DNA of 23,443 bases from a virus. Each line of letters starts with the position of its first letter. The first letter of the stretch is position 1. Both the position numbers and the translations under genes were made by a program. The stretch is taken from positions 1-23,443 of IMG/VR virus record IMGVR_UViG_3300035698_006149; one strand, 5' to 3'. This document shows, piece by piece, positions 6,814-23,443 of the stretch. The notes under the pieces were generated by a model. That model worked only from the letters and a program-made list of their open reading frames with translations, did no database searches and was not told where the DNA came from.

Positions 6814-6836
6814 TCTTTACTTCCTCCACTTCTATG

Positions 6837-6845
6837 TATAGTAAG
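6837..6845 (-). promoter_or_regulatory. CTTACTATA element before the protease-scaffold gene
   Basis: CTTACTATA on the minus strand, 23 bases before the ATG at 6813, in the short gap after the portal gene. It is one of several copies found ahead of genes. TACTAT could serve as a -10, but no good -35 is present at 16-18 bp here. Confidence 0.45.
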
Positions 6846-6863
6846 AGAGTTTGATCTGGCTTC

Positions 6864-8606: not shown

Positions 8607-9484
8607 GCTTCCTCAGTCAAAGGTGGAGGAACATCCAGAGTTTGTGTGTCAGAACGCTTCTGAATGGTTCCTAACCCTGGAATAACAAGATTGTCCGTGA
8701 GTTCTTTGTAGGCTGCTTTGATGGAAGCCAGGGCACTTTCAGTAGGAACCGGAGTTGGAGCTGGAGTTCCTGGAGGGTAACTGATTCCCATATGTGTAGT
8801 CTCAGCAGCTACAGATTCAGCTTGAGAAACTCCCAAGCCATCCAAGGTTCGCTTGATTGCAATCAAGCGGGCATTGACTGCAGTATTAGCAGCCGTCGAA
8901 AGTTTGTTGAAGAGGCTGACGATAGAGGGTTTTACTTCTGGTACCTCTGACTCAACGATCTTCATAGGAGACACTGGGCTGGCTGTGACTGCTGTAAGAT
9001 CGTTGAGAGCTTTAGACTTGACCATTGAACGGGTGTAATCTCTGAGATCTGCAGTCTTCTGAATCATATTGTCCTTGGTGACCTCTGAAATTTGATCCAG
9101 TGTTCCAGAGATTAAAGACTCGAAAGAGTCTCCAAGTGTAGCAAGCTGTTTGGAAACAGAGCCTGTCAGAGTATCTTTCTTTGTGGCTAGGGCATCTACT
9201 TTGGTCAGAACCTCAGAATCCCGGTGGGCCAGGACTTCCATTTCCTCGATACACTGGTCCCCTCTGGAACGGATTTCATTGGACACGGTGTCCAACGTAG
9301 AGGGGGTTTCTCTCAATCCTTGATCGATGGCATCGGCCAGATCTGTAACCCGGTTACCAGCCAGAGAAGTTACCATAGCCTCGCGGGTCTCTCGATAGTT
9401 TACCAAAGGAATACTGTCAGCCTGGTTGGAGTTCTCAAGAACTGCAGATTCAAAAGCGTCAATGATTGGCTGATAGGCAGACAT
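8603..9484 (-). CDS. Coiled-coil protein carrying one GISYPPG motif
   Basis: A 293-residue, largely helical protein with heptad-like stretches (about 40-165) and no recognised family. Residues 233-241 read GISYPPGTP and are followed by a Pro-rich linker (PAPTPVPTES). That short motif recurs five times in the gene immediately upstream in the operon, whose stop overlaps this start (TAATG). The stop in turn overlaps the portal start. Position between terminase and portal, and the shared motif, suggest a virion-internal or portal-associated structural protein. This is inference. A perfect 17-bp palindrome at 9279-9295, encoding Leu-Asp-Thr-Val-Ser-Asn, lies within it. Confidence 0.6.
   Translation of the reverse strand: MSAYQPIIDAFESAVLENSNQADSIPLVNYRETREAMVTSLAGNRVTDLADAIDQGLRETPSTLDTVSNEIRSRGDQCIEEMEVLAHRDSEVLTKVDALATKKDTLTGSVSKQLATLGDSFESLISGTLDQISEVTKDNMIQKTADLRDYTRSMVKSKALNDLTAVTASPVSPMKIVESEVPEVKPSIVSLFNKLSTAANTAVNARLIAIKRTLDGLGVSQAESVAAETTHMGISYPPGTPAPTPVPTESALASIKAAYKELTDNLVIPGLGTIQKRSDTQTLDVPPPLTEEA
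9279..9295. repeat. Dispersed palindrome, copy 2
   Basis: TTGGACACGGTGTCCAA, a perfect 17-bp dyad inside the 293-residue gene. It is identical over all 17 bp to the intergenic copy at 19412-19428. Confidence 0.8.
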
Positions 9485-10818
9485 TATTTAGGATCCTCCA
9501 GACCAGTAGAATTAGGAGGATAGCTGATGCCTATATACTGGGTAGAAGCAACTGCTTCAGTCTGTTGCTTAGCCAATTCTTTAGCTTTCGACGAGTCAGA
9601 GCTATCAAGAGAGAATCCAGGTGGATAGTTAATCCCTTTAGATTGAGTTTCTTTAGCAGCGGCTTGTTCAGCTTTCCTAATATCTTCAATAGAAAACCCA
9701 GGGGGATAGCTAATACCTTTTTTAATAGGAGGAAGAATAACTTTTTTAATAGAGTCTGAAATAGTATCTGTCATCTCTCCCCATAAGGAAAAGATAGAGC
9801 TGCCAATTCCTGTAAGACCACCAGCCAGGTTGGGTTTGAGTTTGTCATAATACTTTCCGACATCCCCGAAGACAGGCTTCTTATAAAGAGTGTCAGTCGA
9901 TTTGGTAACTAGCTCCTTGGTCTTCTCAACTTGACCTGATACTCCTTCAGGAGAGAATCCTGAAGGATAACTGATTCCTAGGTTCTGAGTCTCCTTGACA
10001 GCAGCAGCTTGTTCAGCTTTCCTAATATCTTCAATAGAAAACCCAGGGGGATAGCTAATACCTTTCTTCTGAGCATCCTCAGCTTTTGACTGAAGTTTAC
10101 CCATGAAACTTTCAAACATCTTGCCGTTAGTAGCGGCAGAGACTTTCTGGCTGACTACCTTCTTGATCTTCTTGTAAGAACTGGAAACAAAGGACTTAAG
10201 AGATCCGACCAGGGATTCTTTTTCCTCTTCCCTTTTTCCAACCACAGTATCTGCCATCTCGAGCTGATCTTTGAGACCTCCTGAGATAGAATCAATGACT
10301 GAAGGAATGTCCTCCAAGGCTTTGGAGAAATCTTTCTGTCCTGTATCCATGACGAACCCATACATGGCAATATCAGCAAGATCGTCTAATCGAGGCTCAG
10401 TCTGGAAAGGAAGGAAGGTCAGTTCCTCTTGGATACCATTATCATGAGGGCGGACACGACCACGAACTCTCTGAGCGTCCTGCCAAAGTTGGTGGCTGGA
10501 AGCTACACCCTCAGATACTTTGTCTATAATGTAAGAGGAGAATGGATTGGACATGGGGTCAATACTTACAAACAAAGGGTCATGCATTTCAGGAGAAAGC
10601 TTACCGGTAGCAACTTCTTCTCCAAAGACATTAGAGGAAGAGACCCCGGAGAGTTTCTGCTGAAGCATACTTCCACCAGGGCAGGTCATATCAAAGATGA
10701 CTCGACGGGCAGCCTCATTGGTAGGACGTTCCTGAATAAGCTGAGACAAGCCAGTGCCATTACCAACAATGGAGTTGAAAATAGATATCTTTACTTTGGG
10801 TTTTGTTAGCCGGGCCAT
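9484..10818 (-). CDS. Repeat protein with five GISYPPG-type motifs
   Basis: A 444-residue protein of unknown family. Residues 1-180 are mixed and look folded. From about 190 it is helical, Lys/Glu/Ala-rich and repetitive. The motif occurs at 253-261 (GISYPPGFS), 281-289 (GISYPSGFS), 368-376 (GISYPPGFS), 395-403 (GINYPPGFS) and 430-436 (GISYPPN). Two copies lead into an identical SIEDIRKAEQAAA helix. A sixth copy is in the next gene. A regular short aromatic-proline motif on flexible helical arms suggests repeated docking to a multicopy partner such as capsid or portal, but no partner can be named. The GFS-helix units derive partly from an exact 59-bp DNA duplication. Confidence 0.65.
   Translation of the reverse strand: MARLTKPKVKISIFNSIVGNGTGLSQLIQERPTNEAARRVIFDMTCPGGSMLQQKLSGVSSSNVFGEEVATGKLSPEMHDPLFVSIDPMSNPFSSYIIDKVSEGVASSHQLWQDAQRVRGRVRPHDNGIQEELTFLPFQTEPRLDDLADIAMYGFVMDTGQKDFSKALEDIPSVIDSISGGLKDQLEMADTVVGKREEEKESLVGSLKSFVSSSYKKIKKVVSQKVSAATNGKMFESFMGKLQSKAEDAQKKGISYPPGFSIEDIRKAEQAAAVKETQNLGISYPSGFSPEGVSGQVEKTKELVTKSTDTLYKKPVFGDVGKYYDKLKPNLAGGLTGIGSSIFSLWGEMTDTISDSIKKVILPPIKKGISYPPGFSIEDIRKAEQAAAKETQSKGINYPPGFSLDSSDSSKAKELAKQQTEAVASTQYIGISYPPNSTGLEDPK
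9662..9720 (-). repeat. 59-bp exact direct repeat, copy 1
   Basis: Identical over 59 bp to 10007-10065, in the same reading frame of the 444-residue gene. It encodes the GISYPPGFS motif and the helix that follows it. The identity includes third codon positions, so the duplication is recent or kept uniform by recombination. Confidence 0.85.
10007..10065 (-). repeat. 59-bp exact direct repeat, copy 2
   Basis: Second copy, 345 bp from the first (offset a multiple of three, so the frame is preserved). Recombination between copies would delete 115 codons in frame. Confidence 0.85.
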
Positions 10819-10820
10819 GG

Positions 10821-11240
10821 TTATCTCACTACTGTCATAGACTGTTCAAGAAACAAGGTCTTAAGACGCTCGTTGTTCATCAAGGAATCCGGGGACTTGC
10901 CACGTTCATATGACAGAAGGTCTGGGTAGGCACTGGCAACTTCAATGTCTACTGCCTTCTTATAGGTCTCCCAAGAGATATAATTTCCCTTACTGGGGGG
11001 ATCCAGGAGCTGGACAAGCTGTCGCAGCTGGGAGCTAGCCTTTCGGATGTCAATCTTAAATCCTTCTCCCAATTGATCCAGAAGACCTATTGTTTCTACA
11101 GCTTTGGATCGAGCTTGGGTAAACAAGAGTCTTGCAGCCGGGCGGTCGACGGGCTGACGATCATAGTTGGAGCCCTGAAGAACAGAAGGGTCATGGGTGT
11201 TAACTACAACATCTCGTAGGCGGTTAAAGGTTTTGGCCAC
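10821..11240 (-). CDS. Small unknown protein after the terminase
   Basis: A 139-residue protein starting with GTG; its start overlaps the terminase stop in TAGTG. The sequence is mostly helical, without membrane segment, signal peptide or cysteine pattern. Segments such as RSKAVETIGLLDQLGEG and SSQLRQLVQLLDPPSKG suggest a helical bundle. I recognise no family. It lies 2 bp ahead of the 444-residue gene, within the packaging operon, so a small head or packaging accessory protein is plausible. Confidence 0.65.
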   Translation of the reverse strand: MAKTFNRLRDVVVNTHDPSVLQGSNYDRQPVDRPAARLLFTQARSKAVETIGLLDQLGEGFKIDIRKASSQLRQLVQLLDPPSKGNYISWETYKKAVDIEVASAYPDLLSYERGKSPDSLMNNERLKTLFLEQSMTVVR

Positions 11241-14200
11241 TATCTGGTCCTCTTAGAGAAGTTTCCGGCTGTTCTTGAGGCAAACCCATTAACGCTTCTA
11301 GGCTTTGACCCTCGAGAGGAGTCAACAGGAATACCGTTCACACTTGTTAATAACAGGTTCTTGTCTTTGGGATCATCCATCAGAGCTCCAAAGGATCTCA
11401 AGGCACCTTCTTCAGTTATATTCTTAAGGTCATCAGAGACTTTAGGTAGGATAACAGCCTGTCCCGTTGCTCCTATTTTGAGCTTGGGCATCAGGTTTAC
11501 ACTGGGTTGGTCTGAAGAAGTACCAAAGCTTTTATCGGACCCACTGATGATCATTGCTGATTCTAAAGGAGTTATACGCTTCTCGTAGAACCATTCTTTC
11601 CAGTAAGCATAGAGTGCTAGACCAGAGGCAATCACATCATGGTCATTATCTGGAGTATAGATAGGGTGGCCAGCTGCAGATTGGCGCTCAACCTTGAAGG
11701 CAATCATTGAAGGGCTTAGGGCCTTGCTGGTTCTCTCGGCCTCACTGATAAAGACTGCTCGTTCTTCGACCATGGCCTGAAAGAAGTTTACTATCAGTGT
11801 CTTCTCCTGGATTTTACGTGCCTTGGTCTCATCATTAGGACAGGCAGGATCTACCATTGGAATAGTAGAAGCCATACTAACAGGTGTCAGAATATCTCCA
11901 AGTCTAGCATCTGGGTGCTTGCCACCCCGAAGAGGATCTCTGGCTGCATTGAGTGACATCTCTTTCATGCGCTCAACTTGCATATCACCAAATCCAGCAT
12001 CCACATAGATAAACTTAGGCTGATAGATTCTGTTGGCACAAAAGATGGCATTTACTGACATGATTTGAGTGAAGTCAATATGAGAGACAATCCAACGATC
12101 GATCATCTTATAAGTTCCACGACCCTGGGCGTCTTCTAATGAAGCAGGTGTAAACTCACAGACATAGAGACGAAGACCTACACCTGGTCTATTCCAGTCA
12201 GCTCCTATAGTTCTAATGACTCCAGGTGTGACTGGCTTGACAGGACATCGAGACAAGTCAGTGACAGGTTCAGTATATTCCCAATGCTTCTGAGATATTG
12301 CCAAGACATCATCAGGCTTAAAGATAGCAGATGCTTCTACACCAAATTCTGCAAGCCACTCACGAACATATTCATCATGGTCTCTGCATGATCTTCGAAT
12401 AGCCTCAAGAGCTTTCTTTTTCTCTGCCTCTTCCATTGCTACAATGTCTCTTCGATCATTAATAGAATAGAAAATCTCCCTATGGCATGAAGAAGATATA
12501 CAATGCTCATAGAAAGTTTCACGATGCCCATGTGGTGTAGATATCTCTAAACATTCGATGTTTTTGTTTTGGCCAATGATTGGGTTAATGGTACGCCAGT
12601 CTTCACCATCTAGATAGTCCGAATTGTGTGTCAACATACCGTTGGCAAAGAAACGGTGTTGAGCACTGGAAGTCATATTATAGACAATACCTGTCTTTCC
12701 AAGTCTCTTTTGACAGCTCTTAAGAATAGGTAGACGAAGGTATCCAGGTTTCCACTCAAGAGATTTAATAAGCTCAGCAGGGGTCATCATGGATTCTCGT
12801 AAACCTTTGTTCTTAGTGTATTTACGGTAAAGTATCCAGGTATTGGCTCCTTGAAGTTTCTTCACATTGTAGCAGAAGCTTACAGACTTGATAAACTGAT
12901 CAATGTTTTCCTTGGAGTTGTTTATACTTATTCCTCCAAACAATTTACCTTCAATAGAATAAGTCTTTGTACGGCTCCATTTGATAGACAGGGCTGAAAG
13001 AAGTTGACCGATCTGATCTAAAAAGCTGTCAAGCCATTCCTCTTTTATGCTTCTTATTCTTAAATCAATAGAGTTTGGAGTAATCCCATTCTTTTGATAA
13101 CGAATACTTGAAGCCTCTGCACTGAATAATCCCGACAGGAAGCTAGATTTTATAAAGTTATTGGCCTTCATTATTACTTCAGGGATAATTAAAGGCTGTA
13201 AGGTTTTATAACTCGAAGGACATATATCCTTAAGCAATCTGTAGGCCCATGAACTTGTTATAGAAGAGACTGTTCCTCTTATTCCACGATCTACATTTTC
13301 GGAAAATCGAGTGTAAGAGCTGCAGCGTCGTCCACCAAGATGGACAATATCCTCAATGATTTGTTCTAGATCCTCTTCTTGACCAGAGAAACCAGCAGTA
13401 CCTCTTCCCTTTTTATCTATTGTTATCCAGCCATCACCAAAATTATAACCTGCAAGACGGGCAACGACTACCCCTTGGGAGAACTTAAGATTCTGATAGT
13501 GAAGAGGAACAATTGCATATTTTGCTTCAAGAGGAGGGATATCTCTTTTTCCATTAAAGATTGGATGGTTCTCTGTACAATGAAGTGTTCCTAAGTCATT
13601 ACTAACTGTAACTAACTCATTTATACCTTTAGATAATGCATCAACTTCATCTACGACTAAACCATTGACATCTCCACCTAGGACTTTGTCTTGTAATGTT
13701 AGATTTTGAACAGGTCTCACTGCAAATTCTGATACATTTACAAGAGTTCCTTCAGCAATACACTCATCGATAACGCACATACCGGCACTGGATTCAGAGT
13801 CGTCGTCTTTCTCAATATTGCGTAATCCAACCACACCAGTTCCTCGAAGAGAGCTGCCTCGGGCCTTATTGGAAGAACGAAGGACCTTTCCTACAATTGC
13901 TGACCCATTGTTGTATTCAATACGATAACGTGGTCGCTGACGATAGATATGACCTGAACGCATGCCAACCGGAATAACCACAGAGTCCATCAACTCAGGG
14001 TGACCATTATCAGCAGCCATCTCACACAGCTGCTCAAGTCCACCCTGGTCGGAGTCAAAGAACTCGTGGACCTGGTCTTCATAGGGGGCCACAACAAGAA
14101 CAGTCTGCTTCCAGAAGAATGACCTGTGCAGAGTCAGGACACGAGCTGAGATTGTTTTTCCTTCACGTCGACAAACCCGACCAACCTTATGCATAGCTGT

Positions 14201-14500
14201 ACAAAGATACATGTCATCCTGAACGGGGCTCCAGGCTGGGAGGTCAAGAACATCCCTGGCCCAGGCTGCAACGTTGATAGCATAAGCAGAGTGAGTAGCA
14301 TCTTTCTCATTCTTACCCTGGCTTAAGAAAGATTCTACTTGATAACTGAAGTCTGTCTTGTCTGCATGCAGTGGCCGGCAGTCAATTTCAAACTTCAGTC
14401 CTTTATCCAGCATGTGATACCGGATACATTTCTTACACATGGGATGTAGTTTTTCAAAGGCTTCTGGGGGAATATCTGAGAACTTATCAATATTAGGCAT
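11240..14500 (-). CDS. terL: Terminase large subunit, interrupted by an intein
   Basis: A 1086-residue precursor; removing residues 247-626 leaves a 706-residue terminase. This is the packaging motor ATPase and headful/cos nuclease. The ATPase shows a deviant Walker A, CRREGKT (110-116), and a Walker B MCVIDE (241-246) with catalytic E246. A coupling motif follows as STPHG (654-658). The RNase H-like nuclease follows, with candidate metal-binding acids D768 (GADWN), D834 (YVDAGFGD) and D955 (NDHDVIASGLALYAYW). The insertion lies immediately after the Walker B glutamate, so the ATPase is inactive until splicing. The start overlaps the previous stop in TAATG. C-terminal residues after about 985 are Ser/Lys-rich and look flexible. 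Confidence 0.92.
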   Translation of the reverse strand: MPNIDKFSDIPPEAFEKLHPMCKKCIRYHMLDKGLKFEIDCRPLHADKTDFSYQVESFLSQGKNEKDATHSAYAINVAAWARDVLDLPAWSPVQDDMYLCTAMHKVGRVCRREGKTISARVLTLHRSFFWKQTVLVVAPYEDQVHEFFDSDQGGLEQLCEMAADNGHPELMDSVVIPVGMRSGHIYRQRPRYRIEYNNGSAIVGKVLRSSNKARGSSLRGTGVVGLRNIEKDDDSESSAGMCVIDECIAEGTLVNVSEFAVRPVQNLTLQDKVLGGDVNGLVVDEVDALSKGINELVTVSNDLGTLHCTENHPIFNGKRDIPPLEAKYAIVPLHYQNLKFSQGVVVARLAGYNFGDGWITIDKKGRGTAGFSGQEEDLEQIIEDIVHLGGRRCSSYTRFSENVDRGIRGTVSSITSSWAYRLLKDICPSSYKTLQPLIIPEVIMKANNFIKSSFLSGLFSAEASSIRYQKNGITPNSIDLRIRSIKEEWLDSFLDQIGQLLSALSIKWSRTKTYSIEGKLFGGISINNSKENIDQFIKSVSFCYNVKKLQGANTWILYRKYTKNKGLRESMMTPAELIKSLEWKPGYLRLPILKSCQKRLGKTGIVYNMTSSAQHRFFANGMLTHNSDYLDGEDWRTINPIIGQNKNIECLEISTPHGHRETFYEHCISSSCHREIFYSINDRRDIVAMEEAEKKKALEAIRRSCRDHDEYVREWLAEFGVEASAIFKPDDVLAISQKHWEYTEPVTDLSRCPVKPVTPGVIRTIGADWNRPGVGLRLYVCEFTPASLEDAQGRGTYKMIDRWIVSHIDFTQIMSVNAIFCANRIYQPKFIYVDAGFGDMQVERMKEMSLNAARDPLRGGKHPDARLGDILTPVSMASTIPMVDPACPNDETKARKIQEKTLIVNFFQAMVEERAVFISEAERTSKALSPSMIAFKVERQSAAGHPIYTPDNDHDVIASGLALYAYWKEWFYEKRITPLESAMIISGSDKSFGTSSDQPSVNLMPKLKIGATGQAVILPKVSDDLKNITEEGALRSFGALMDDPKDKNLLLTSVNGIPVDSSRGSKPRSVNGFASRTAGNFSKRTR
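12623..13762 (-). mobile_element. LAGLIDADG intein in the terminase Walker B motif
   Basis: A 380-residue, in-frame intein from C247 to N626. Block A is CIAEGTLV. Block B is GTLHCTENHPIF, with its TxxH. The C-terminal blocks include VYNMTSSAQHRFFANG and the terminal THN, followed by Ser as the +1 residue. All splicing residues (Cys1, block B His, final His-Asn, +1 Ser) are present, so it should splice, joining VIDE to SDYLDGEDW. Two LAGLIDADG-type motifs, RLAGYNFGDGW (348-358) and FLSGLFSAEAS (454-464), keep an acidic residue (D and E) at the catalytic position. Homing activity is therefore plausible. The insert looks more AT-rich than its flanks, as expected for acquired DNA. Confidence 0.92.
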
Positions 14501-15084
14501 TAGTGGCGGCTCCTATTACGGTTAGCCGCACCCCGGGCCATATATCCAGATACTTTCTGAGGGGAAGGATTTCCTCGCTTGAGTTCATCTTGAGCAGCAA
14601 TACCAGCGCCTAGAGCAGCAAACCCAGCTCCCGCTGCAAAGGGGTGGAACTGCATGGAACTAATAGTAGCAGATGCCACGGATCCTGCCTTTCTATTTAT
14701 AACTGCTCCATAGGCTTTGGTTTTTCCTCTAGCACCAGACATGAGAGATTCTCTACCAATAGAACCCTTCATGCTGTTCATGAACTGAGAAAACTTCCCA
14801 GGTGTAGTAGTATTAAACCCGAACCGGGCCTGTCGATAGAGTTTACGAGCATATTTGTTTACACCACCGGATTTACTAAAGACTGATTTAGAAGCTCCAA
14901 TGAGACCGGCGCCCGCTAGACCAGCTGAACCAATAGCCATCAAACCATAGGTCGGAGCAATAAGAGGAGAAACTGCAAACTTAGTCAGAGCTAGGGCAGC
15001 ATTAATTGCCACACCTAGTTCATCCTGAGGATCATAATCTGGTTGGATATAACTTCCACGCTGTCCTAAATAGGAAGATGGCAT
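14500..15084 (-). CDS. Small Gly/Ala-rich unknown protein before the terminase
   Basis: A 194-residue basic protein. Residues about 26-66 and 145-165 are hydrophobic and rich in Gly and Ala (LMAIGSAGLAGAGLIGAS; FAAGAGFAALGAGIAA). These could be membrane-interacting helices. Between them is a basic stretch (KYARKLYRQARFGF). The tail is Arg-rich (RGAANRNRSRH). The gene overlaps both neighbours (TAATG at each end), so it is expressed with the terminase. Gly/Ala-rich amphipathic proteins in head blocks are often ejection or minor virion proteins; that is only a suggestion here. No family is recognised. Confidence 0.6.
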   Translation of the reverse strand: MPSSYLGQRGSYIQPDYDPQDELGVAINAALALTKFAVSPLIAPTYGLMAIGSAGLAGAGLIGASKSVFSKSGGVNKYARKLYRQARFGFNTTTPGKFSQFMNSMKGSIGRESLMSGARGKTKAYGAVINRKAGSVASATISSMQFHPFAAGAGFAALGAGIAAQDELKRGNPSPQKVSGYMARGAANRNRSRH

Positions 15085-16040
15085 TACTCTTCTCCTTGGG
15101 GTTGAATATCAACAGTAGTGACGTCAAGAAGCTCGCTGCGACGACTGGTTCTGGAAGCTAGAGAGGGAGCACTACCCATCGGGTTCTCTTTGGGCTGATG
15201 CTTGGCCTGAGCTTCAGGAGTAGCCAGTAGTTGGCGTCGGAGGCCGTCGATGTTTCTTTGACAGACCTCCAGCTGTTCAAACAGGGGGGAGGCTTCCTTG
15301 CGGTAAATAGAGTGAACTTCCCCTAAGCCAACAGGAATTGCAGAGACTTCATTATCATTGACTACGAAGGGGTCACAGCCAAGTTCATTAAGAACTCGAC
15401 TCTGCAAGACCATCCAGGAAGCCAGGTTGCCAATCAAATGGACATGGATAGCAGACTCCGTTGAGACACCTAGTGAATCACAAAGGCTTTGCCTAAGTGA
15501 AGTATCTTGAAGTATTTCTAGGGGGCAGGCCAAACTGAACGGGTGAGCATCAGCTGCATAAAGGTAACAGCGACAGTGGGATAGATCCTTCTGAGCTCCT
15601 CCGGTGCTCACTGCCAGGGAATCCTGAACCATTGGACAAAGAGGGCCCTGACAGATCATAGGAATTCTTGCAGCTCCATAGCCACAACTACTGTGTATCA
15701 ATTGAAACTGGTGGACAATATTAGAGAGTTGTTTCTGGGATAATGAAAGTGAGTTACCAGATGGAGAGATCTTGGCCAACCAACTGGCAGCTTCTAGCTG
15801 TAAGGCAGTAGAATCTTCAGGATGTGACTCTATCTTACCCTCTACTATTTCAAAAGTTCCCTCTCCAGAAGAAGGGAGGGCATCAATGTTGTAGTGGGGG
15901 AACAGCTGGCCAAACTCAGCAGAGTTCTCCTCAACATTATGTTTCATCACAGAAGTTGTACGAGCTGAGGCTTTGCCACTCTCTGTGAAAGCGAGTTTGT
16001 TCAGGGTCTTTTCAACTTCCTGGGTGTGGTCTTCAGTCAT
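15084..16040 (-). CDS. Cysteine-rich protein, first gene of the packaging operon
   Basis: A 318-residue protein. The centre carries C119, C130, C135 (in CQGPLCPM), C156 and C158 (CRC), and C172 (ACPLE). A helical segment ending MVLQSRVLNELG follows. The spacing looks like a metal or iron-sulfur site. CP-x-E-type motifs preceding a helical Arg-containing segment occur, as far as I recall, in unassigned proteins encoded just before terminases of other large phages. A terminase small subunit or packaging regulator is possible but unproven. The first 80 residues are acidic and probably disordered; the C-terminal 50 are also low complexity. A CTTACTACA element precedes the gene. Confidence 0.6.
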   Translation of the reverse strand: MTEDHTQEVEKTLNKLAFTESGKASARTTSVMKHNVEENSAEFGQLFPHYNIDALPSSGEGTFEIVEGKIESHPEDSTALQLEAASWLAKISPSGNSLSLSQKQLSNIVHQFQLIHSSCGYGAARIPMICQGPLCPMVQDSLAVSTGGAQKDLSHCRCYLYAADAHPFSLACPLEILQDTSLRQSLCDSLGVSTESAIHVHLIGNLASWMVLQSRVLNELGCDPFVVNDNEVSAIPVGLGEVHSIYRKEASPLFEQLEVCQRNIDGLRRQLLATPEAQAKHQPKENPMGSAPSLASRTSRRSELLDVTTVDIQPQGEE

Positions 16041-16155: not shown

Positions 16156-16653
16156 TTAGTTCAGGTAAGAAATATGTGGACGGTGATTTTGCTTGTTGTA
16201 TTGACTGTCCTTCTTAACCAACTTAACTGCTTGTAGCTCTCGAGATAGCCACTTACCTGTCTCCAGCTTTTCAATATCTACCAGGACCCGGCCAAAGTTA
16301 CCCCTCTTCCCATGAGTCCAGACAACAAGAGTACCTGTGGAAAGAAACTCCTGTGTGAAAAGAGTGGCTACATCACCGCCCAGGTCCCGTTTCTCAATAG
16401 CATCAGAGCCTAGGAGACGACATTTGACCTTGACCATGTTCTGATCAAACCCAGCTGACCAGGTTAGCCAGAAAGTATCTCCATCATAGACTCTGTCAAC
16501 TGACAGAACAGGATATCGATACCAAAAGGCTTCTGCTTTATTAGCAGCGGTTGTGTTTTCCTGGTCCGAAAAGACCCAGATGACTAACAGAACTGATAGA
16601 ATAACTGGGATCCACTTAAGGCGACTACTTCTTGTTATCGACTTTCTTAGCAT
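16156..16653 (-). CDS. Membrane-anchored staphylococcal-nuclease-like protein
   Basis: A 165-residue protein with a short basic N-terminus and one membrane helix (about 13-28, WIPVILSVLLVIWVF). An SNase fold follows. Conserved residues are all present: VYDGDT (D57, D59, T60), CRLLGSDAIE (R79, D84, E87) and FGRVLVDI (R122). These correspond to the Ca2+ ligands and catalytic R35, E43 and R87 of staphylococcal nuclease. The topology would place the nuclease outside the cytoplasmic membrane. There it might degrade competing or host DNA, or act in entry exclusion. I chose the ATG at 16653, which has AAGGA 8 bases upstream; the longer frame would start with TTG. It overlaps the previous gene by 29 bp. 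Confidence 0.8.
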   Translation of the reverse strand: MLRKSITRSSRLKWIPVILSVLLVIWVFSDQENTTAANKAEAFWYRYPVLSVDRVYDGDTFWLTWSAGFDQNMVKVKCRLLGSDAIEKRDLGGDVATLFTQEFLSTGTLVVWTHGKRGNFGRVLVDIEKLETGKWLSRELQAVKLVKKDSQYNKQNHRPHISYLN

Positions 16654-16975
16654 TGACTTTTTCCTTGGATTTGATAGGGGGGGAAGGGATTTTTGGCTTA
16701 ACCGAAGGAATAGTGATCTTAGAATCAACTACCGGATCTACTGGTTTGTCAGCCTGCTTAACAGTGATTGGACCCTCAACTACTTCCATCTTGCTGATAG
16801 GAATGTAGAGCTGAGGAGTCTGAAGGGCAACTGCCCGAGCTGCATTAGTCAGAGCCATCTGAAGGCTTTCAAGGTCTTTTTCAATCATGATAGGTTCAGA
16901 AAAAGTACCACTGGGGTTGACCAGACAAACACCAACCATGGTGCTCCCTGCAAGTTGAACGAGTTGGAATTTCAT
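16625..16975 (-). CDS. Small unknown protein with Pro/Lys-rich tail
   Basis: A 116-residue protein starting MKFQLVQLAGSTMVGVCLV. The start at 16975 is set by AAAGGAG 6 bases upstream; longer frames lack a site. Residues 1-75 look like a small folded alpha/beta domain (beta start, then a helix DLESLQMALTNAARAVAL). The last 40 are Pro/Lys-rich and probably disordered. No family is recognised. It precedes and overlaps the nuclease gene, so the two are probably co-translated. Confidence 0.65.
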   Translation of the reverse strand: MKFQLVQLAGSTMVGVCLVNPSGTFSEPIMIEKDLESLQMALTNAARAVALQTPQLYIPISKMEVVEGPITVKQADKPVDPVVDSKITIPSVKPKIPSPPIKSKEKVNAKKVDNKK

Positions 16976-17709: not shown

Positions 17710-18708
17710 ATGAAGATGGGACAAATGAGCCTTCCGAGATTTGAAACTGGGAGGATAATGCGCTCGCTTGTCGTTCCAGAAGACTATGGCGTAAGACTGC
17801 ATAACGTCCCAGAATGCTGGAAAGAGACCCGTGGGGCAGGAATTATCGTAGCTGTCCTGGATACAGGTTGCCCTGACCATCCTGACCTTGTCATATCCGA
17901 ATTTAAGAATTTTACAGCTGATCCTGTGATAGACACGGTGTCCGGACACTCGACTCACGTCAGCGGGATAATTGGTGCCCGGGGTGGAGACCATGGCTTG
18001 ACTGGGATCGCTCCAGAATGCTCACTCATCACCGGCAAGATATTAGACAACCAAGGACAGGGATCTGATGTCGCATTGGCCGAAGGTATTCGTTGGGCTA
18101 TAGAAGCAGGAGCCAAGGTCATTAATATGAGCCTTGGAGCTCCACCCTCAGCCAAGGCTTACTTCAAAAGGACTGTCAGTGCTCTGAACCTGGCCTATGA
18201 GCAAGGCGTGATGGTTATCTGTGCTTCAGGTAACGAGAATGCAGGCAAGGTTAGCTTGCCAGCTTGCTTAGATACAACAATTGCCGTTGGAGCTGTTAAC
18301 TCCGCTCGAGAACGTTCCTGGTTCTCAAACCGCGGTCGGCATCTTAGTTTTGCTGCTGCTGGTGAAAATGTTCTCTCGACCTTCAAAAATGATACCTATT
18401 GTGAATTATCCGGAACTAGTATGGCTTCTCCTCACATTGCTGGACTCTGTGCCCTTATTCTCTCCTCCCACCTGAATGCAGATAAAGAGACTCCAATTAA
18501 AGACCTAGAAGACATGATCGAGCATTTGCGTCGAATCAGTGTTGACTTTGGAACCAAAGGCTTCGATGAGGACTATGGATGGGGTATCCCTATCTTTGGT
18601 CACATCAACCCTGACGCGCCTAAGGTTGAAGATGTTGAAGGAAAGATTCAGAAAGGATTTTCCTTTCTGGATTCTCTTATGCTTTTACTACAGCAGCGAC
18701 TGAAGTAA
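17710..18708 (+). CDS. Intracellular subtilisin-like serine protease (family S8)
   Basis: A 332-residue subtilase with the complete catalytic set: D51 in VAVLDTG, H80 in GHSTHVSG, oxyanion N175 in ASGNEN and S237 in GTSMASPH. There is no signal peptide, and the 20 or so leading residues are too short for a classical propeptide. It therefore resembles intracellular subtilisins. The C-terminus (about 295-332) is an extra, partly hydrophobic tail. Possible roles are virion-protein maturation, host-protein turnover or lysis support; none is proven. It is in its own unit, opposite in direction to the head genes, with a sigma-70-like promoter. Phage genes of this layout are often accessory cargo. 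The 11-bp palindrome core at 17932-17942 overlaps the codons just before the active-site His. Confidence 0.92.
   Translation: MKMGQMSLPRFETGRIMRSLVVPEDYGVRLHNVPECWKETRGAGIIVAVLDTGCPDHPDLVISEFKNFTADPVIDTVSGHSTHVSGIIGARGGDHGLTGIAPECSLITGKILDNQGQGSDVALAEGIRWAIEAGAKVINMSLGAPPSAKAYFKRTVSALNLAYEQGVMVICASGNENAGKVSLPACLDTTIAVGAVNSARERSWFSNRGRHLSFAAAGENVLSTFKNDTYCELSGTSMASPHIAGLCALILSSHLNADKETPIKDLEDMIEHLRRISVDFGTKGFDEDYGWGIPIFGHINPDAPKVEDVEGKIQKGFSFLDSLMLLLQQRLK
17932..17942. repeat. Dispersed palindrome, copy 3 (core only)
   Basis: GACACGGTGTC, the perfect 11-bp core of the palindrome, within the protease gene. It is flanked by A and C, so the outer pairs seen in the other copies are lost. Confidence 0.6.
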
Positions 18709-18734
18709 CAAAATCTACCATTCAGGAAGTTAAG

Positions 18735-19349
18735 ATGTTCAGTATCTACAAGAAAATCATTTATCGTGGATTGATAGTCATTTTGGCAGCATGTATGCTC
18801 ATTGCTATAAGTTGGGGTGGGAAGTATATTACGAGTTGGGACTTTCGTCGGGCCATGAGTCGAGAATCAATGGCAAAAGATGCTGAAAATTCACAGAAAG
18901 TTCATGATCAGCTGGTTGAAATCAGGGCTTTAACTGGTGCAGACCGAGCCTATGTATTCCTGTTTCATAATGGAGCTCATCTTAGTACTGGCCTGCCAAT
19001 GAAGAAAATGTCCTGTGCTTATGAGTCTTGTGCGTCGGGAACTGCTAGTAAAGCTTTTGAAATGTCTGATCTCCTTGTCAGCCGCTATCCTATACTACTA
19101 AACCTATTGACAAAGAAACCTCAGCCTTACCTGATGAATGTTGACGCTGCTGAAAACTCTCACTTCAAAACACTTAAACAGCTTCATGGAACTCACTATG
19201 TTGTGGTACATCTACTTGTTAATGATGGACTACTAATTGGCTGGATGGGTGTTGACTTCCACAGCATGCCTGTAGACTTTAACTCTAAGTTCTACACGGA
19301 TACTGCCTTAAGAATTTCGGAGATCATGGGTATCCCAAGACTAGATTAA
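18735..19349 (+). CDS. Membrane-anchored GAF-like sensor protein
   Basis: A 204-residue protein. One membrane helix near the N-terminus (about 11-28, RGLIVILAACMLIAISWGG) is followed by a GAF-like domain (about 55-195). LTGADRAYVFLFHNGAHLSTG is a strong match to the first GAF strands, and LIGWMGVDF to the last. GAF domains bind small ligands or act as scaffolds. No kinase, cyclase or other output domain is attached, so it would act by itself or through a partner. It starts 26 bp after the protease stop and ends just before a terminator, making a two-gene unit. The helix would leave the domain on one side of the cytoplasmic membrane; the side is uncertain. Confidence 0.75.
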   Translation: MFSIYKKIIYRGLIVILAACMLIAISWGGKYITSWDFRRAMSRESMAKDAENSQKVHDQLVEIRALTGADRAYVFLFHNGAHLSTGLPMKKMSCAYESCASGTASKAFEMSDLLVSRYPILLNLLTKKPQPYLMNVDAAENSHFKTLKQLHGTHYVVVHLLVNDGLLIGWMGVDFHSMPVDFNSKFYTDTALRISEIMGIPRLD

Positions 19350-19376
19350 CAATAGATCCAAGATCACCGGATGAAA

Positions 19377-19408
19377 GAAGAGCCCAGACATTACTGCCTG
19401 GGCTCTTC
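19377..19408. terminator. Bidirectional terminator between convergent units
   Basis: GAAGAGCCCAG (19377-19387) pairs perfectly over 11 bp with CTGGGCTCTTC (19398-19408) across a 10-base loop. It sits between the GAF-like gene and the HIRAN gene, which converge. The flanking T tracts are short on both strands. Confidence 0.7.
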
Positions 19409-19411
19409 CCT

Positions 19412-19428
19412 TTGGACACGGTGTCCAA
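19412..19428. repeat. Dispersed palindrome, copy 4 (intergenic)
   Basis: TTGGACACGGTGTCCAA, a perfect 17-bp dyad 3 bp beyond the terminator stem. It overlaps no gene, which shows that the motif is not just a codon artefact. Confidence 0.8.
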
Positions 19429-19430
19429 TC

Positions 19431-19790
19431 TCAGGAAAACGTTTTGAACTTGGTCTTGTTAACATAGATATGAATCAGGGGAATCCGGCCACCCAGATTC
19501 TCAATACTATGTAGCTTGGCTCGTAGGTTAAGTTTACCAGAATCCATCAATGGTGCCCAGACTGCAGACAGGTCCTTTGGAATATAACCAAGGTTGACCA
19601 GTCCCTGATCAGGAGAGGTGGCATCACTCACCAATACTCGAATAGCATTAGGATCATGAGGCTCTGAAGGCTCTCTAACCAGAACGACAGCGTCACCTGG
19701 AGTACGGTAACGAAGGGCAGCTTTTCCTTCAGTATGAAAGCAAACACCTCGTACCTTTACTGGATTAGGAATTTTAATAGGCGCGGTCAT
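19431..19790 (-). CDS. Stand-alone HIRAN-domain protein
   Basis: A 119-residue protein that is essentially a single HIRAN domain. It shows VRGVCFHTEGKAALRY, then VVLVREPSEPHDPNAIRVLV, LGYIPKDLSAVWAPLMDSG and a closing strand. In Rad5/HLTF-type proteins this fold binds single-stranded 3' DNA ends. Bacterial stand-alone versions are also thought to bind DNA. A role in phage DNA processing or replication is plausible. I chose the ATG at 19790, with GAGG about 10 bases upstream; the frame could extend one codon to a TTG. It overlaps the helix-turn-helix gene by 17 bp, so the two are coupled. Its stop is 2 bp from the copy 4 palindrome. Confidence 0.8.
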   Translation of the reverse strand: MTAPIKIPNPVKVRGVCFHTEGKAALRYRTPGDAVVLVREPSEPHDPNAIRVLVSDATSPDQGLVNLGYIPKDLSAVWAPLMDSGKLNLRAKLHSIENLGGRIPLIHIYVNKTKFKTFS

Positions 19791-20082
19791 CAAAAGGATC
19801 CTCTCTTCCTGAGATCAGCATAAGAGGTGACACATTTAAGGCAAAGGCAAGGTAGGTAATAAGCGAGACCTTTGTCTTAAACCCGCGCCGGACTCTGCGC
19901 AGAGAGTTATAGAGACTGTTTGGGTGATAACCAATACGCTTCGAGAGCCAGCGTATTGAGGCTTTGTGAAACTTCAACTCATAGTGGAGACGGGCAAGGT
20001 CAAGCCTGGCCATGCGCCCACCATCTACAGGAGGACTAGGTCTATGTCTTTTACGTCGTTTTGATAGGATCAATTTAGGCAT
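19774..20082 (-). CDS. Cro/CI-like helix-turn-helix regulator
   Basis: A 102-residue basic protein. The N-terminal 25 residues are Lys/Arg-rich. Residues about 30-92 form a Cro/CI-type (HTH_3) fold: ASIRWLSKRIGYHPNSLYNSL is the helix-turn-helix. The ending, LITYLAFALNVSPLMLIS, matches the final helices of the family. It probably binds operator DNA as a dimer. Candidate sites in this window are the TTGGACACGGTGTCCAA palindromes, the nearest 345 bp away, or the inverted repeats upstream of its operon; neither is proven. AAGGAG lies 5 bases before the ATG, and the stop overlaps the HIRAN gene. Confidence 0.75.
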   Translation of the reverse strand: MPKLILSKRRKRHRPSPPVDGGRMARLDLARLHYELKFHKASIRWLSKRIGYHPNSLYNSLRRVRRGFKTKVSLITYLAFALNVSPLMLISGREDPFDDRAY

Positions 20083-20106
20083 GACTTCTCCTTATTTGTT
20101 AAATGT

Positions 20107-20143
20107 GATCCAGCACCTGGTATGTTGGTCCTGATGCTGGATC
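20107..20143 (-). repeat. Inverted repeat before the regulator gene
   Basis: GATCCAGCA (20107-20115) pairs perfectly with TGCTGGATC (20135-20143) across a 19-base loop. It lies between the micro-protein gene and the helix-turn-helix gene. No T tract follows on the minus strand, so an mRNA hairpin or an operator is as likely as a terminator. Confidence 0.55.
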
Positions 20144-20157
20144 TGGGGGTATGCTTG

Positions 20158-20229
20158 TTAGCAGTTACCCTTACCGCGGCCAGTCTTAGGACCGGCACCT
20201 TGGGGGCCTGTTCCGTCACCTCTAGGCAT
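20158..20229 (-). CDS. 23-residue Gly-rich micro-protein (DUF5320-like N-terminus)
   Basis: A tiny frame beginning MPRGDGTGPQGAG and ending TGRGKGNC. It has AGAAGGTG positioned 7 bases before its ATG and its own TAA. The sequence closely follows the N-terminal signature MPxGDxTGPxGxGPxTGRGxGxC of the DUF5320-type small proteins of archaea and bacteria, but stops right after the Cys, where those proteins continue. Function is unknown. The pattern of Gly, Arg and a single terminal Cys could bind a nucleotide, nucleic acid or metal. It sits between csrA and the helix-turn-helix gene, all on the same strand. The signature match and the ribosome binding site together make this a real gene despite its length. 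Confidence 0.75.
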   Translation of the reverse strand: MPRGDGTGPQGAGPKTGRGKGNC

Positions 20230-20305
20230 ATGGTTTCACCTTCTTCCTTCACTTATATCCACTGATAGTTAATCATAAGATGCAGTGTCCGTCAACCTCT
20301 TTTCT

Positions 20306-20467
20306 TTATTTCGATGGTTTTTCATTGGGAACAGTGATAATCTTAAGGTCCCTGGGAGCCTGGATGCCAATATGCACCTGGCCGGCATGATAGCGAATTA
20401 TAACAATTTTGATGTCTTCTCCTATCATGATTGCATCTTCTTTAGGTTTAATAGCAGTGACTAGCAT
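20306..20467 (-). CDS. csrA: CsrA-like RNA-binding regulator, divergent
   Basis: A 53-residue protein: MLVTAIKPKEDAIMIGEDIK, then QVHIGIQAP. It follows the CsrA/RsmA pattern (MLvltR..ge.i.IGddI ... gqVriGI.AP). CsrA dimers bind GGA motifs in mRNA leaders and change translation or stability. The N-terminal basic pair (R6-R7 in E. coli) is Ile-Lys here. The 'VHREE' segment with essential R44 is replaced by KIITVP, and the C-terminal helix is nearly absent. Either RNA binding has changed, or the protein acts by pairing with host CsrA. GGAG lies about 9 bases before the ATG; an inverted CTTACTAT pair lies upstream. Family assignment is firm from the core; altered function is inferred. Confidence 0.8.
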   Translation of the reverse strand: MLVTAIKPKEDAIMIGEDIKIVIIRYHAGQVHIGIQAPRDLKIITVPNEKPSK

Positions 20468-20523
20468 TATGAAACTCTCCACACTGTTGATCTTACTGCC
20501 TTAAGACAGCATATACCTTCTCC

Positions 20524-20552
20524 TATAGTAAGTCCTTACTTACTATTGAAAA
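20524..20552 (-). promoter_or_regulatory. Promoter/operator region before csrA
   Basis: CTTACTATA on the minus strand (20524-20532), with a weak -35, TTTTCA (20547-20552), 16 bases from TACTAT. The same spot contains a perfect inverted repeat, ATAGTAAG (20525-20532) and CTTACTAT (20539-20546), separated by 6 bases, as in an operator. The element lies 56 bases before the csrA ATG. Confidence 0.5.
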
Positions 20553-20574
20553 CATTAGAGTTCAATAGTCTTAG

Positions 20575-20823
20575 TCACCAGCCGTCTTTTAGGCATTGGT
20601 CCAGCCAGGAAGCCTTGTGTCCATCAAAATAAAGTCCTGATAAAGTACCGGAAGGGCAGGCATAAATTAGGCTGAAGTCCTCGGAGCTGGCCCTAATGCT
20701 CACATCCAGGAAGCCATTGTTTCTAAGCAGAGCTGCAGCTTTTGAAGGGCAGCCATCGTTGAGAAAAGCACTGGCCCAAGACAGAACCTGCCCAGGAGGT
20801 AGAAATTGTTTCTTGTTTCTCAT
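20575..20823 (-). CDS. Small unknown protein
   Basis: An 82-residue protein whose ATG overlaps the previous stop (ATGA), so it is translated with it. The sequence has a helical first half (QVLSWASAFLNDGCPSKAAALLRNNG) and a beta second half (DFSLIYACPSGTLSGLYFDG), ending with WLDQCLKDGW. Three cysteines are spaced too far apart for an obvious metal site. No family is recognised. It is followed by the csrA promoter region. Confidence 0.65.
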   Translation of the reverse strand: MRNKKQFLPPGQVLSWASAFLNDGCPSKAAALLRNNGFLDVSIRASSEDFSLIYACPSGTLSGLYFDGHKASWLDQCLKDGW

Positions 20824-21164
20824 TGTAAGGGGAACATTTCTATCAGCTGGGAATAAGAAGATTCAGGATCTTCTAGACCTCTGAGAGGCGCCTTGGAGGG
20901 ACGGAAAGCGACAGCATGTATATTGGGGAAGAGTCCTGGGATAAAGTCCATATCGGACTCATCGATAACGTCAGCATTAAATAGAAGCATAACAGGGACC
21001 TCAACAGATGGCTCAGTATCTTCTACTCTTGAGAGAACAGATTCTTGACTTAAGCCTTGGGCTTCTAAATCCTCCTTCATGAGTCGCTTAAGATCTGCAT
21101 ATATCTCTTCAGGAGAGCGTTTCTTCTTCTGAAAGAAGTTTCTAAACATGATATTTACTCTCAT
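20820..21164 (-). CDS. Small unknown acidic protein
   Basis: A 114-residue protein. The N-terminus is basic and helical (FRNFFQKKKRSPEEIYADLKRLM). The remainder is acidic, with VPVMLLFNADVIDESDMDF and a short C-terminal helix. It has no recognised family or membrane helix. The start is uncertain. ATG 21164 has AGGA only 2 bases upstream, while ATG 21149 has a weak GAGAG at 9 bases and would give 109 residues. It is the first gene of the minus-strand regulatory group and faces a divergent gene across a 98-bp region holding paired CTTACTA elements. Confidence 0.6.
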   Translation of the reverse strand: MRVNIMFRNFFQKKKRSPEEIYADLKRLMKEDLEAQGLSQESVLSRVEDTEPSVEVPVMLLFNADVIDESDMDFIPGLFPNIHAVAFRPSKAPLRGLEDPESSYSQLIEMFPLQ

Positions 21165-21205
21165 TTCCTGAGGTGAGGCTTATACCCTCAATGGTAGATA
21201 CTGAT

Positions 21206-21226
21206 CTAGTAAGTGTCTTACTACTA
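21206..21226. promoter_or_regulatory. Paired divergent CTTACTA elements
   Basis: CTTACTAG on the minus strand (21206-21213) and CTTACTACTA on the plus strand (21217-21226) form an inverted repeat with a 3-base spacer. Each points at its own gene: the minus copy is 42 bases from the ATG at 21164, and the plus copy 36 from the ATG at 21263. Directional pairing at a divergent junction supports a promoter or leader role. Confidence 0.55.
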
Positions 21227-21262
21227 GGCCAGAACAAAGATCAAAAGAAGGAGAGAAAGATC

Positions 21263-21676
21263 ATGATGACAAGCTACGGTATTGAGATTAGAGCTAAAGG
21301 AACCACACTTACCTTTGACTTCAAGAATCTGAAGTCCTATTCCTCCACCTTCCTGAAGATAGAGAACAATGGAACTGACAAGCCACTATTAGCTGCTTTT
21401 GACATCGTCTTTGATGATCCGGCGATCTGCCAGATTCTAGTCCCCTTAAGTGACAGTCCTGACCTCAGACTTATTGTTCCCTCCCTCTCAATCGATGCTA
21501 AGATCAAGAAGATTGAGCCGTCTGAGGAAGAAGGCCTTGTTGTTCTCCTGCTGGTCCCGGCAGAGAGTCCTCCTTATAAGTTGGAAAGAGGCATAGGAGC
21601 TCCTGGAACAGAAAGGCCATGGAATTTAATACCTCCAGTTATGAGTGATGAAGGATCAACACCAAGACGATCCTAA
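21263..21676 (+). CDS. Unknown protein, first gene of the rightmost unit
   Basis: A 137-residue protein starting at the first of two adjacent ATGs, with AAGGAG 9 bases upstream; the longer upstream frame has no site. Residues 1-100 are beta-rich (YGIEIRAKGTTLTFDFKNL; ILVPLSDSPDLRLIVPSL). The C-terminal 35 are Pro/Arg-rich and probably disordered. No family is recognised. It heads a three-gene plus-strand unit ending at the strong terminator at 22851. Confidence 0.7.
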   Translation: MMTSYGIEIRAKGTTLTFDFKNLKSYSSTFLKIENNGTDKPLLAAFDIVFDDPAICQILVPLSDSPDLRLIVPSLSIDAKIKKIEPSEEEGLVVLLLVPAESPPYKLERGIGAPGTERPWNLIPPVMSDEGSTPRRS

Positions 21677-21699
21677 GGAAATCTTTCAAGGAGTAAACA

Positions 21700-21990
21700 A
21701 TGAGCAGCAGAGTGATCCTCAGAACAGATGTTGTTGCCTTGGATATCAGCTATACGTCAGTGAGGAGTCTTGAGGTTGTGTACAAGACTTCTCCATCATA
21801 TAGAATATCTATACCTGATAGAATTATTGTCAAGCTTTGGGATCCAATGAACCTCAAGTCTATTTTATTGATCAAGCAGGCGTCTAACCTCAAGTTGGTC
21901 ATCGAGAGACATGATATTGATGAGAATGTAAGAGTAATCAGTATCAATGAAGATAGCATTGAATGTAAAGTCTTGCCTTGGGAAGTCTAA
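21700..21990 (+). CDS. Small unknown beta-rich protein
   Basis: A 96-residue protein with AAGGAG 6 bases before its ATG. Alternating hydrophobic residues (VILRTDVVALDISYTSVRSLEVV and similar stretches, shown here in part: LEVVYKTSPSYRISIPDRI) indicate a small beta barrel or sandwich. It has one short Lys-containing central segment and no cysteine pattern beyond C91. No family is recognised. Its style resembles the C-terminal part of the YopX-like neighbour, and the two could share ancestry, but I cannot align them convincingly by eye. Confidence 0.65.
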   Translation: MSSRVILRTDVVALDISYTSVRSLEVVYKTSPSYRISIPDRIIVKLWDPMNLKSILLIKQASNLKLVIERHDIDENVRVISINEDSIECKVLPWEV

Positions 21991-22053
21991 GAAAATAAAG
22001 AAAGACCTAAGTCTTTCAGAGTGAAGATAAGTTGAAGAAAAAGAAGCAAAGAG

Positions 22054-22824
22054 ATGATCCCAGAATATAGAGCATGGCTCAAAGATGAAGATAAGATGGT
22101 CAAAGTGTCCTCGATTAACTATAAAGAGGAAACAATAAAATTCTTTGATCAAGAGAACCGCAGTAAGATAGAGAATGAAACACTGGTAGAACGGGTAGTT
22201 TACATTCGTCGAACTGTGGACTTCACTAGAATCATCCTCATGCAGTCCAGAGGACTTCTTGATCAAGAAGCTGTAAAGATCTTTGAAGATGATATTGTTT
22301 CCTTCGAAGAGCATTATGATGGGGACAACTTGGTAAGGGCTGTTGTTGCCAGGGTATGCATTCACGAAGAAGAGTGGGCTCTGTTCAGCCTAAAGGATGG
22401 CAAAGACGAGTATATTGGAGACCTTTACTCTGGCCATCTTAACTGGTTCCTTAAGGTCATAGGTAATACTCACGCCAACATTGAACTGATGACAGAGAAG
22501 ATAACCAAGAATTCCATCTCAATAAGAACAAGTGCAGGGTCAATAGAGCTGGGAGACCAGTGTGATATCGAAGTCAAGGAGACGAATGTCACACTCTACA
22601 CAATAGCAGGTAATGTTCATCGTTCCACAGACCCAAAGGTAGTTTCCATCAGACTACGAGGTACCTGGATGTCCAATGATGACACGATAGTCCTTCAACA
22701 CTATCAGGGATATGTAAACCCACCACTAAGAATGGTTATCTCCTACGGAGAGCTTGTAGGAATGGACAGGATGGTCAAGATCCTTGATATCCATAACTCT
22801 TGGATCCTGCTAGAAGTATTGTAA
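22054..22824 (+). CDS. YopX-like protein with a C-terminal beta extension
   Basis: A 256-residue protein. Residues 1-145 follow the YopX family: MIPEYRAWLKDEDKMVKV (family: '.kFRAWdk..k.M'), ILMQSRGLLDQEAVKIFEDDIV (residues 61-82, family 'lMQyTGLkDknGkeIYEgDIV') and LKVIGNTHANIELM at the end. Residues about 155-256 are an additional beta-rich domain not typical of YopX, which is usually near 130-150 residues. YopX proteins are common in phages such as SPbeta; their function is unsettled. The ribosome binding site is weak (AAGAG very near the ATG). It is the last gene before a strong terminator. Confidence 0.75.
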   Translation: MIPEYRAWLKDEDKMVKVSSINYKEETIKFFDQENRSKIENETLVERVVYIRRTVDFTRIILMQSRGLLDQEAVKIFEDDIVSFEEHYDGDNLVRAVVARVCIHEEEWALFSLKDGKDEYIGDLYSGHLNWFLKVIGNTHANIELMTEKITKNSISIRTSAGSIELGDQCDIEVKETNVTLYTIAGNVHRSTDPKVVSIRLRGTWMSNDDTIVLQHYQGYVNPPLRMVISYGELVGMDRMVKILDIHNSWILLEVL

Positions 22825-22850
22825 AAGACAGAACAATTCAAGTAAGTCTA

Positions 22851-22886
22851 AGTGCTCCCGGGAAAGAGACCCAGGGGGCACTTTTT
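22851..22886 (+). terminator. Strong intrinsic terminator
   Basis: AGTGCTCCCGGG and CCCAGGGGGCACT form a GC-rich stem of about 12 pairs (one G-T pair, one bulge) with a 7-base loop, followed by TTTTT. It lies 27 bp after the YopX-like stop. Confidence 0.85.
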
Positions 22887-23075
22887 GTATGAACCCACAT
22901 ATATTTTTTCATATATTTTTAGAACACTATGAATATACTTGTAGATATGAGTATATAAGACACTTTATCTGATAATTAGTTTACATAATGTAGGGACTCT
23001 TGATACAAGTCACGACGTTTTGTAAAGATTAAAGAGGCGCTTAAAGGTAGCTTTGAACATGATGGATCAGAAAAG

Positions 23076-23140
23076 GCGTTAAGGTCCTAAGGTAAGGGTG
23101 ACTTCAAAAAACGCTTAACGCGCGCGAGATAAAGTCACCC
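23076..23140. ncRNA. Candidate structured RNA element: interleaved stems (pseudoknot type) 1
   Basis: GCGTTAAG (23076-23083) pairs with CTTAACGC (23114-23121), and GGGTGACTT (23096-23104) pairs with AAGTCACCC (23132-23140). Both are perfect and they interleave, as in an H-type pseudoknot. The last strand also overlaps CACCCCTCG (23136-23144), which can pair with CGAGGGTG (23192-23199) with one bulge, an alternative fold. Strand of expression is unknown. Confidence 0.45.
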
Positions 23141-23211
23141 CTCGGATATGGTGGTGATATAGATACCAAGCCCGGCGACCCCCCGGCGTTTCGAGGGTGG
23201 CCCCTTGATAA

Positions 23212-23249
23212 TGGACGCTACGTGTGCATGATAGCACTGAGTACAGCAC
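23212..23249. repeat. 194-bp-spaced imperfect repeat, copy 1
   Basis: TGGACGCTAC (23212-23221), then AGCACTGAGTACAGCAC (23233-23249). Both blocks recur 194 bp further on, the first exactly and the second at 14 of 17 positions. The copy is enclosed by a hairpin, GTGT/GATAG with CTATC/ACAC. Confidence 0.7.
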
Positions 23250-23267
23250 TATCACACCCACTTCACT

Positions 23268-23280
23268 GTATCCCGGATAC
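23268..23280. repeat. 13-bp palindrome
   Basis: GTATCCCGGATAC is a perfect dyad with a single central base. It has the same architecture as the dispersed TTGGACACGGTGTCCAA sites but an unrelated sequence. Confidence 0.55.
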
Positions 23281-23319
23281 CAGAACCTCACTCACTCGCA
23301 TAGCTCGTTCATTCGCTCA

Positions 23320-23380
23320 CCGCGGCCTGCACACTGGGCCATGCTGAATTTCTTGGCCGCGGAGGTGTCCAGCATGGCCC
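23320..23380. ncRNA. Candidate structured RNA element: interleaved stems (pseudoknot type) 2
   Basis: CCGCGGCC (23320-23327) pairs with GGCCGCGG (23355-23362), and GGGCCATGCTG (23336-23346) pairs with CAGCATGGCCC (23370-23380). Both stems are perfect (8 and 11 bp) and interleave with connecting segments of 7-8 bases, the geometry of an H-type pseudoknot or of two competing hairpins. Confidence 0.5.
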
Positions 23381-23405
23381 AGGAGAAGACTTGACCTTAT
23401 GACAC

Positions 23406-23443
23406 TGGACGCTACTCCACACACACAGCACCGAGTACGGCGC
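23406..23443. repeat. 194-bp-spaced imperfect repeat, copy 2
   Basis: TGGACGCTAC (23406-23415), then AGCACCGAGTACGGCGC (23427-23443), running to the window end. The small stem CTG-AGTA-CAG of copy 1 becomes CCG-AGTA-CGG here, a compensatory pair change. Confidence 0.7.

Follow-up and report, generated by a model that had tools for sequence, protein, structure and literature searches.

The window, meaning the whole stretch of DNA analysed here, is an entire virus record of 23,443 bp, and the element described below is therefore cut by the contig end. Judging from its predicted proteins, the window is evidently one part of a larger genome, that of a distantly 0305phi8-36-like jumbo phage. Its capsid and portal proteins share 24-30% identity with those of Moorella phage MTATph1, Bacillus phage KLEB27-3 and Acinetobacter phage ME3, and in the ME3 annotation the capsid, portal and terminase are all given as homologous to those of Bacillus phage 0305phi8-36. 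Single-protein searches with the terminase and the capsid retrieved no close relative, and the search with the YopX-like protein a single weak one; the capsid alignment led to several hundred distant relatives. The virion and terminase genes form a block on the minus strand (123-16040). The plus-strand genes (17710-22824), which encode a subtilase, the YopX-like protein and others, are arranged unlike those of the relatives and are followed by a terminator and then by a gene-free stretch.

The large terminase gene (11240-14500, minus strand, 1086 aa) has a weak LAGLIDADG match, below the Pfam cut-off, at residues 452-534, upstream of the terminase match, and could possibly contain an intein. 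An intein in the terminase of BtI1, a relative of 0305phi8-36, has been reported (PMC2147016). A second gene-poor stretch of the window (20083-20574, 492 bp, GC 0.42) also has no ORF of at least 75 aa.

The terminal stretch (22825-23443, 619 bp) contains no ORF of at least 75 aa, in line with the first-pass annotation of this DNA, which had noticed more than 550 bp without a gene. Its five short frames (41-81 aa) have no Pfam match at E<=1, and the possibility that the contig end interrupts a gene was also checked, with no family match. The GC content climbs towards the contig end. The features of the stretch are as follows.

22850-22888, plus strand: intrinsic terminator of the upstream plus-strand gene (YopX-like, 22054-22824), a 10-bp helix AAGTGCTCCC/GGGGGCACTT (22850-22883) and then a T run
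About 22885-22990: AT-rich stretch
22898-22920, plus strand: tandem CATATATTTTT boxes (direct repeat D3), putative phage promoter element
22997-23036, plus strand: putative 5′ hairpin, CTCTT (22997-23001) with AAGAG (23032-23036), from the minimum free energy (MFE) fold of the whole stretch
23037-23048, plus strand: GCGCTTAAAGGT motif, common to the window and its relative G002 in a local alignment
23076-23140, no strand assigned: interlocked helix pair 1, 23076-23083/23114-23121 (8 bp) and 23096-23104/23132-23140 (9 bp)
23206-23221, plus strand: first copy of the spaced repeat, TGATAATGGACGCTAC
23229-23254, no strand assigned: first hairpin around GAGTAC (23239-23244), with C.A mismatches on the plus strand and G-U pairs on the minus strand
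23320-23382, no strand assigned: interlocked helix pair 2, 23320-23327/23355-23362 (8 bp) and 23334-23346/23370-23382 (13 bp)
23400-23415, plus strand: second copy of the spaced repeat, TGACACTGGACGCTAC
23428-23443, no strand assigned: second hairpin around GAGTAC (23433-23438), cut by the contig end

The strong terminator and the AT-rich stretch had been noted in the first reading and were both found, the former as a 10-bp helix; one terminator scan does not list 22850-22883, probably because it limits loop length. The two boxes are the only TATATTTTT sites of the window on either strand. The CTCTT/AAGAG hairpin is absent from a local fold of 71 nt. The spaced repeat, likewise noted earlier, is 16 nt long; its copies at 23206 and 23400 are identical at 14/16 positions, direct, non-palindromic and 194 bp apart, and each is followed by the short hairpin around GAGTAC. 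The segment 23085-23096 is GGTCCTAAGGTA, identical to a highly conserved segment of 23S rRNA that belongs to the I-CeuI site; a chance match is quite possible at such a length.

Five perfect inverted-repeat pairs of 8-13 bp are present, where at least five had been claimed, although one of them (22962/23127, 156 nt apart) may be due to chance. The other four make up the two interlocked pairs, which have the topology of H-type pseudoknots (8+9 bp and 8+13 bp) and correspond to the two pseudoknot-type arrangements described at first. None of 300 dinucleotide shuffles of 23031-23443 (413 nt) reached four such helices (shuffle mean 0.25) or two interlocks (mean 0). The 55 other segments of the window hold at most one interlock each, and 1.02 Mb of loci from other phage DNA hold 12 interlocked pairs in total. 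Over the whole stretch, plain MFE folding gives nothing exceptional on the plus strand (z -0.5 to -0.8) and a moderate value on the minus strand (z -2.3 to -2.8). The signal is carried by the interlocked helices, a kind of structure beyond the reach of plain MFE folding. We infer that both helices of each pair form together; mutually exclusive hairpins, that is a switch, are possible in place of pseudoknots. The small phage contig that supplied the YopX-like protein matching that of the window also has two 9-bp inverted repeats that interlock, located where two genes meet (L002:3098-3180).

The first-pass annotation had proposed a large structured RNA, maybe a divergent GOLLD or ROOL. The structured gene-free element stands, but its assignment to these families found no counterpart in Rfam. 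No covariance model matched the window at curated thresholds, and at E<=5 there were two implausible matches, of which one spans the terminator and the other falls within the YopX-like gene. Neither the ROOL (RF03087) nor the GOLLD (RF02032) model matched the window at the gathering score or at E<=5, the truncation of the element lowering the sensitivity of the ROOL search, and neither matched any of 23 related records; the control genomes were silent too. The stretch is therefore not detectably a member of either family. Homo-oligomeric nanocages are characteristic of ROOL. ROOL resembles the window stretch as a large structured RNA of phages and bacteria of roughly 0.6 kb, with kissing and intermolecular contacts described (PMC12286853), but there are no tRNA genes near the window stretch. 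GOLLD is a giant structured RNA also found in phages, with transcription in the course of phage development, whereas the window stretch is shorter as far as seen. As had been stated, the window has no tRNA or tmRNA (ARAGORN; Rfam), with neither a tRNA-like domain nor a tag reading frame found, and no group I intron signature, and the Rfam models of group II introns and small ribozymes did not match it either.

A DNA search of the gene-free stretch in phages, plasmids and viral contigs found no relative, and homologue searches gave no alignable set. Weak BLAST matches to two other loci (L008, L010) and to KLEB27-3 all lie inside genes. The motif GTACTC-GTGC..GTAGCGTCC does not occur in the viral contigs, and its two occurrences in genome contigs are intragenic with a different spacing, and were attributed to chance. 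The last 18 nt of the contig, used as a query, gave one coding match and no continuation contig. The window element is gene-free, structured beyond chance, unusual and uncatalogued.

Among related phages, G007 (30,873 bp) has a gene-free stretch of about 1 kb (29,819-30,873) and G016 one of 865 bp (55,959-56,823). Each sits to the right of a minus-strand terminase, which is also the layout of the window, and directly after each begins a gene that has a Shine-Dalgarno-like sequence. A third record, G002, has a stretch of about 0.45 kb, reversed in the record, ahead of a small gene. In these three relatives the noncoding stretch is on the side away from the terminase cluster, and the next gene points away. 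The stretches of G007 (z -3.7/-4.7 on the two strands) and G016 (z -6.0/-4.2) fold better than their shuffles, and that of G002 does not (z -0.1 for its GC-richer 250 nt). The isolate Bacillus phage KLEB27-3 has a 506-bp gap free of annotation (215,487-215,992) close to the head of the arm that diverges from the terminase, with a folding z of -4.3 on the strand leading away from the terminase. Long gaps also occur in more distant relatives; the two inspected (G019 and G032) contain small ORFs and were set aside.

The stretches of G007 and G016 gave nothing convincing in Rfam or in annotated phages, and are identical at 26/28 nt in one motif. CTCTGCCTGTAGCRTRGGAGGACAGGCC is common to L105 (about 10556-10583) and L108 (about 16631-16658), where it lies within structured noncoding stretches, about 0.75 kb long, that are otherwise unalike. 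Beyond these two phages, TGTAGCRTRGGAGGACA had two matches, at gene ends with a Shine-Dalgarno-like sequence, which were ascribed to chance. Between the window and G007 or G016 we found no convincing sequence similarity (equalled in 13/400 and 32/400 shuffles, respectively). The homology among the stretches is thus positional only, as this similarity is unconvincing and the G002 stretch folds no better than shuffles. Gene-free stretches recur at or near the same place, two or three of them are structured, and sequence similarity is seen in pairs only.

One such pair includes the window. Its plus strand and G002 share CTCTT, GATACAAG and then GCGCTTAAAGGT, in a local alignment with a score of 27 that was reached in 0/400 shuffles (mean 18.2, maximum 26); the minus strand shows no similarity to G002 (278/400 shuffles). 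Among the phage loci searched, the pattern CTCTT..GATACAAG..GCGCTTAAAGGT occurs in the window and G002 only; three matches to GATACAAG..GCGCTTAAAGG beyond G002 are all in coding sequence. The CTCTT/AAGAG hairpin is kept in G002 with a loop shorter than in the window. Both also have tandem TATATTTTT boxes on the same strand, some 60-100 nt before the common motif; the boxes alone are weak evidence, because the comparison was made post hoc and the G002 sequence is rich in AT. These boxes and the shared motif lead into the stretch, which argues against its being non-functional, whether as intergenic DNA in decay or because the contig ends in chimeric or non-homologous sequence. The rise in GC towards the contig end and the failure to find a DNA relative would fit such an origin, but neutral sequence would not give so strong a signal of interlocked helices, and we regard this origin as very unlikely.

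We favour a reading, to which we give a probability of about one half, in which this stretch of a 0305phi8-36-like jumbo phage encodes, on the plus strand, a noncoding RNA that is structured (or else a structured leader of great length) and is made from its own phage promoter. If the element is an RNA, its location on the plus strand is fairly likely, given the orientation of the relatives' stretches, the similarity to G002, the boxes and the preceding terminator. G-U pairing and folding energy nevertheless favour the minus strand. Only on that strand do helices extend by G-U pairs (from 13 to 15 bp, from 9 to 13 bp in the case of 23096-23104/23132-23140, and to a 14-bp hairpin), and it has the better folding z, as would be expected from a structured RNA that starts beyond the contig end and runs towards 22990, convergent with the YopX-like gene. 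We consider such a minus-strand RNA improbable: the G002 similarity and the promoter-like boxes run on the plus strand, the relatives' stretches point the same way, and the terminator scan found no terminator at its 3′ end. Moreover, the adjacent G-U versus A-C positions, counted by a fixed rule, are few (1 versus 3).

A DNA element, such as a genome terminus, the edge of a terminal redundancy, a packaging site or a replication origin, is the main rival to the plus-strand RNA, because the breaks of all four contigs fall at the element or next to it: the window at 0 bp from the noncoding edge, G002 at about 110 bp (L101:1), G007 at 113 bp (L105:10873) and G016 at about 735 bp (L108:17588). Such clustering is unlikely by chance for records of 31-57 kb and mildly favours an origin or a genome end, albeit in an unplanned test in which an ORF truncated by the contig end can make the gap look larger than it is. 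The inverted and spaced repeats would then form cruciforms or be bound by proteins, next to an AT-rich region in which the DNA unwinds; the AT-rich stretch does adjoin the inverted repeats, and the direct, non-palindromic repeat with its 194-bp spacing would suit this role. However, the stretch has no iteron array, the record, which is a fragment, has no repeat between its ends and, in the GC-skew check suggested for an origin, no clear switch at the stretch, and the stretches of G007 and G016 resemble folded RNA beside a gene start. We consider a DNA element of this kind unlikely. The cluster of breaks may possibly reflect a genome terminus or a feature that breaks assemblies; a genome end or terminal-redundancy edge located beside early genes would account for it, and is compatible with an RNA in the same place.

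For the plus-strand RNA, we infer transcription of the stretch and every step from promoter to function. Upstream transcription would end at the terminator, and a new unit would start at a phage-specific AT-rich promoter marked by the tandem TATATTTTT boxes, to be read on the plus strand away from the terminase/virion block. The RNA would open with the 5′ hairpin and continue into a domain that contains two H-type pseudoknots as well as two copies of a GGACGCUAC-plus-hairpin module, and could act early in infection, in trans or on a gene beyond the contig end. An early-made RNA appears the likeliest role by analogy with phage K, in which long noncoding RNAs are abundant and one comes from its own early promoter (PMC9241854). 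Like the window stretch, lnc001 and lnc002 of phage K are long, noncoding and intergenic; unlike it, in a comparison by description only, they belong to another lineage, lie by tRNA genes and have measured transcription. In 0305phi8-36, from the same distant lineage as the window, noncoding spaces are concentrated in the non-virion arm and were taken as promoter sites (PMC2147016); in the part of that source consulted, no large structured RNA is described for these promoter-sized spaces.

The element is probably RNA-coding, and it is probably a fast-changing viral RNA. It is tempting, if more tentative than the reading of the window itself, to suggest that large, fast-evolving structured RNAs of about 0.4-0.8 kb form a class, absent from Rfam, that 0305phi8-36-like jumbo phages carry behind a dedicated promoter near the head of the virion-diverging arm; the window member would combine H-type pseudoknots in tandem with GGACGCUAC-hairpin modules that recur. 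Few large ornate RNAs of obscure function are known from phages, and they have been recognised via sequence families; searches of this kind would miss an element that is conserved in position while its sequence changes. The idea can be put to a laboratory test in KLEB27-3, a relative available as an isolate, which has a structured noncoding gap close to the equivalent position. A Pistol ribozyme (L145:6257-6320, minus strand, 71 bits) was also seen in a distantly related phage record, in a locus with two tRNA genes elsewhere.
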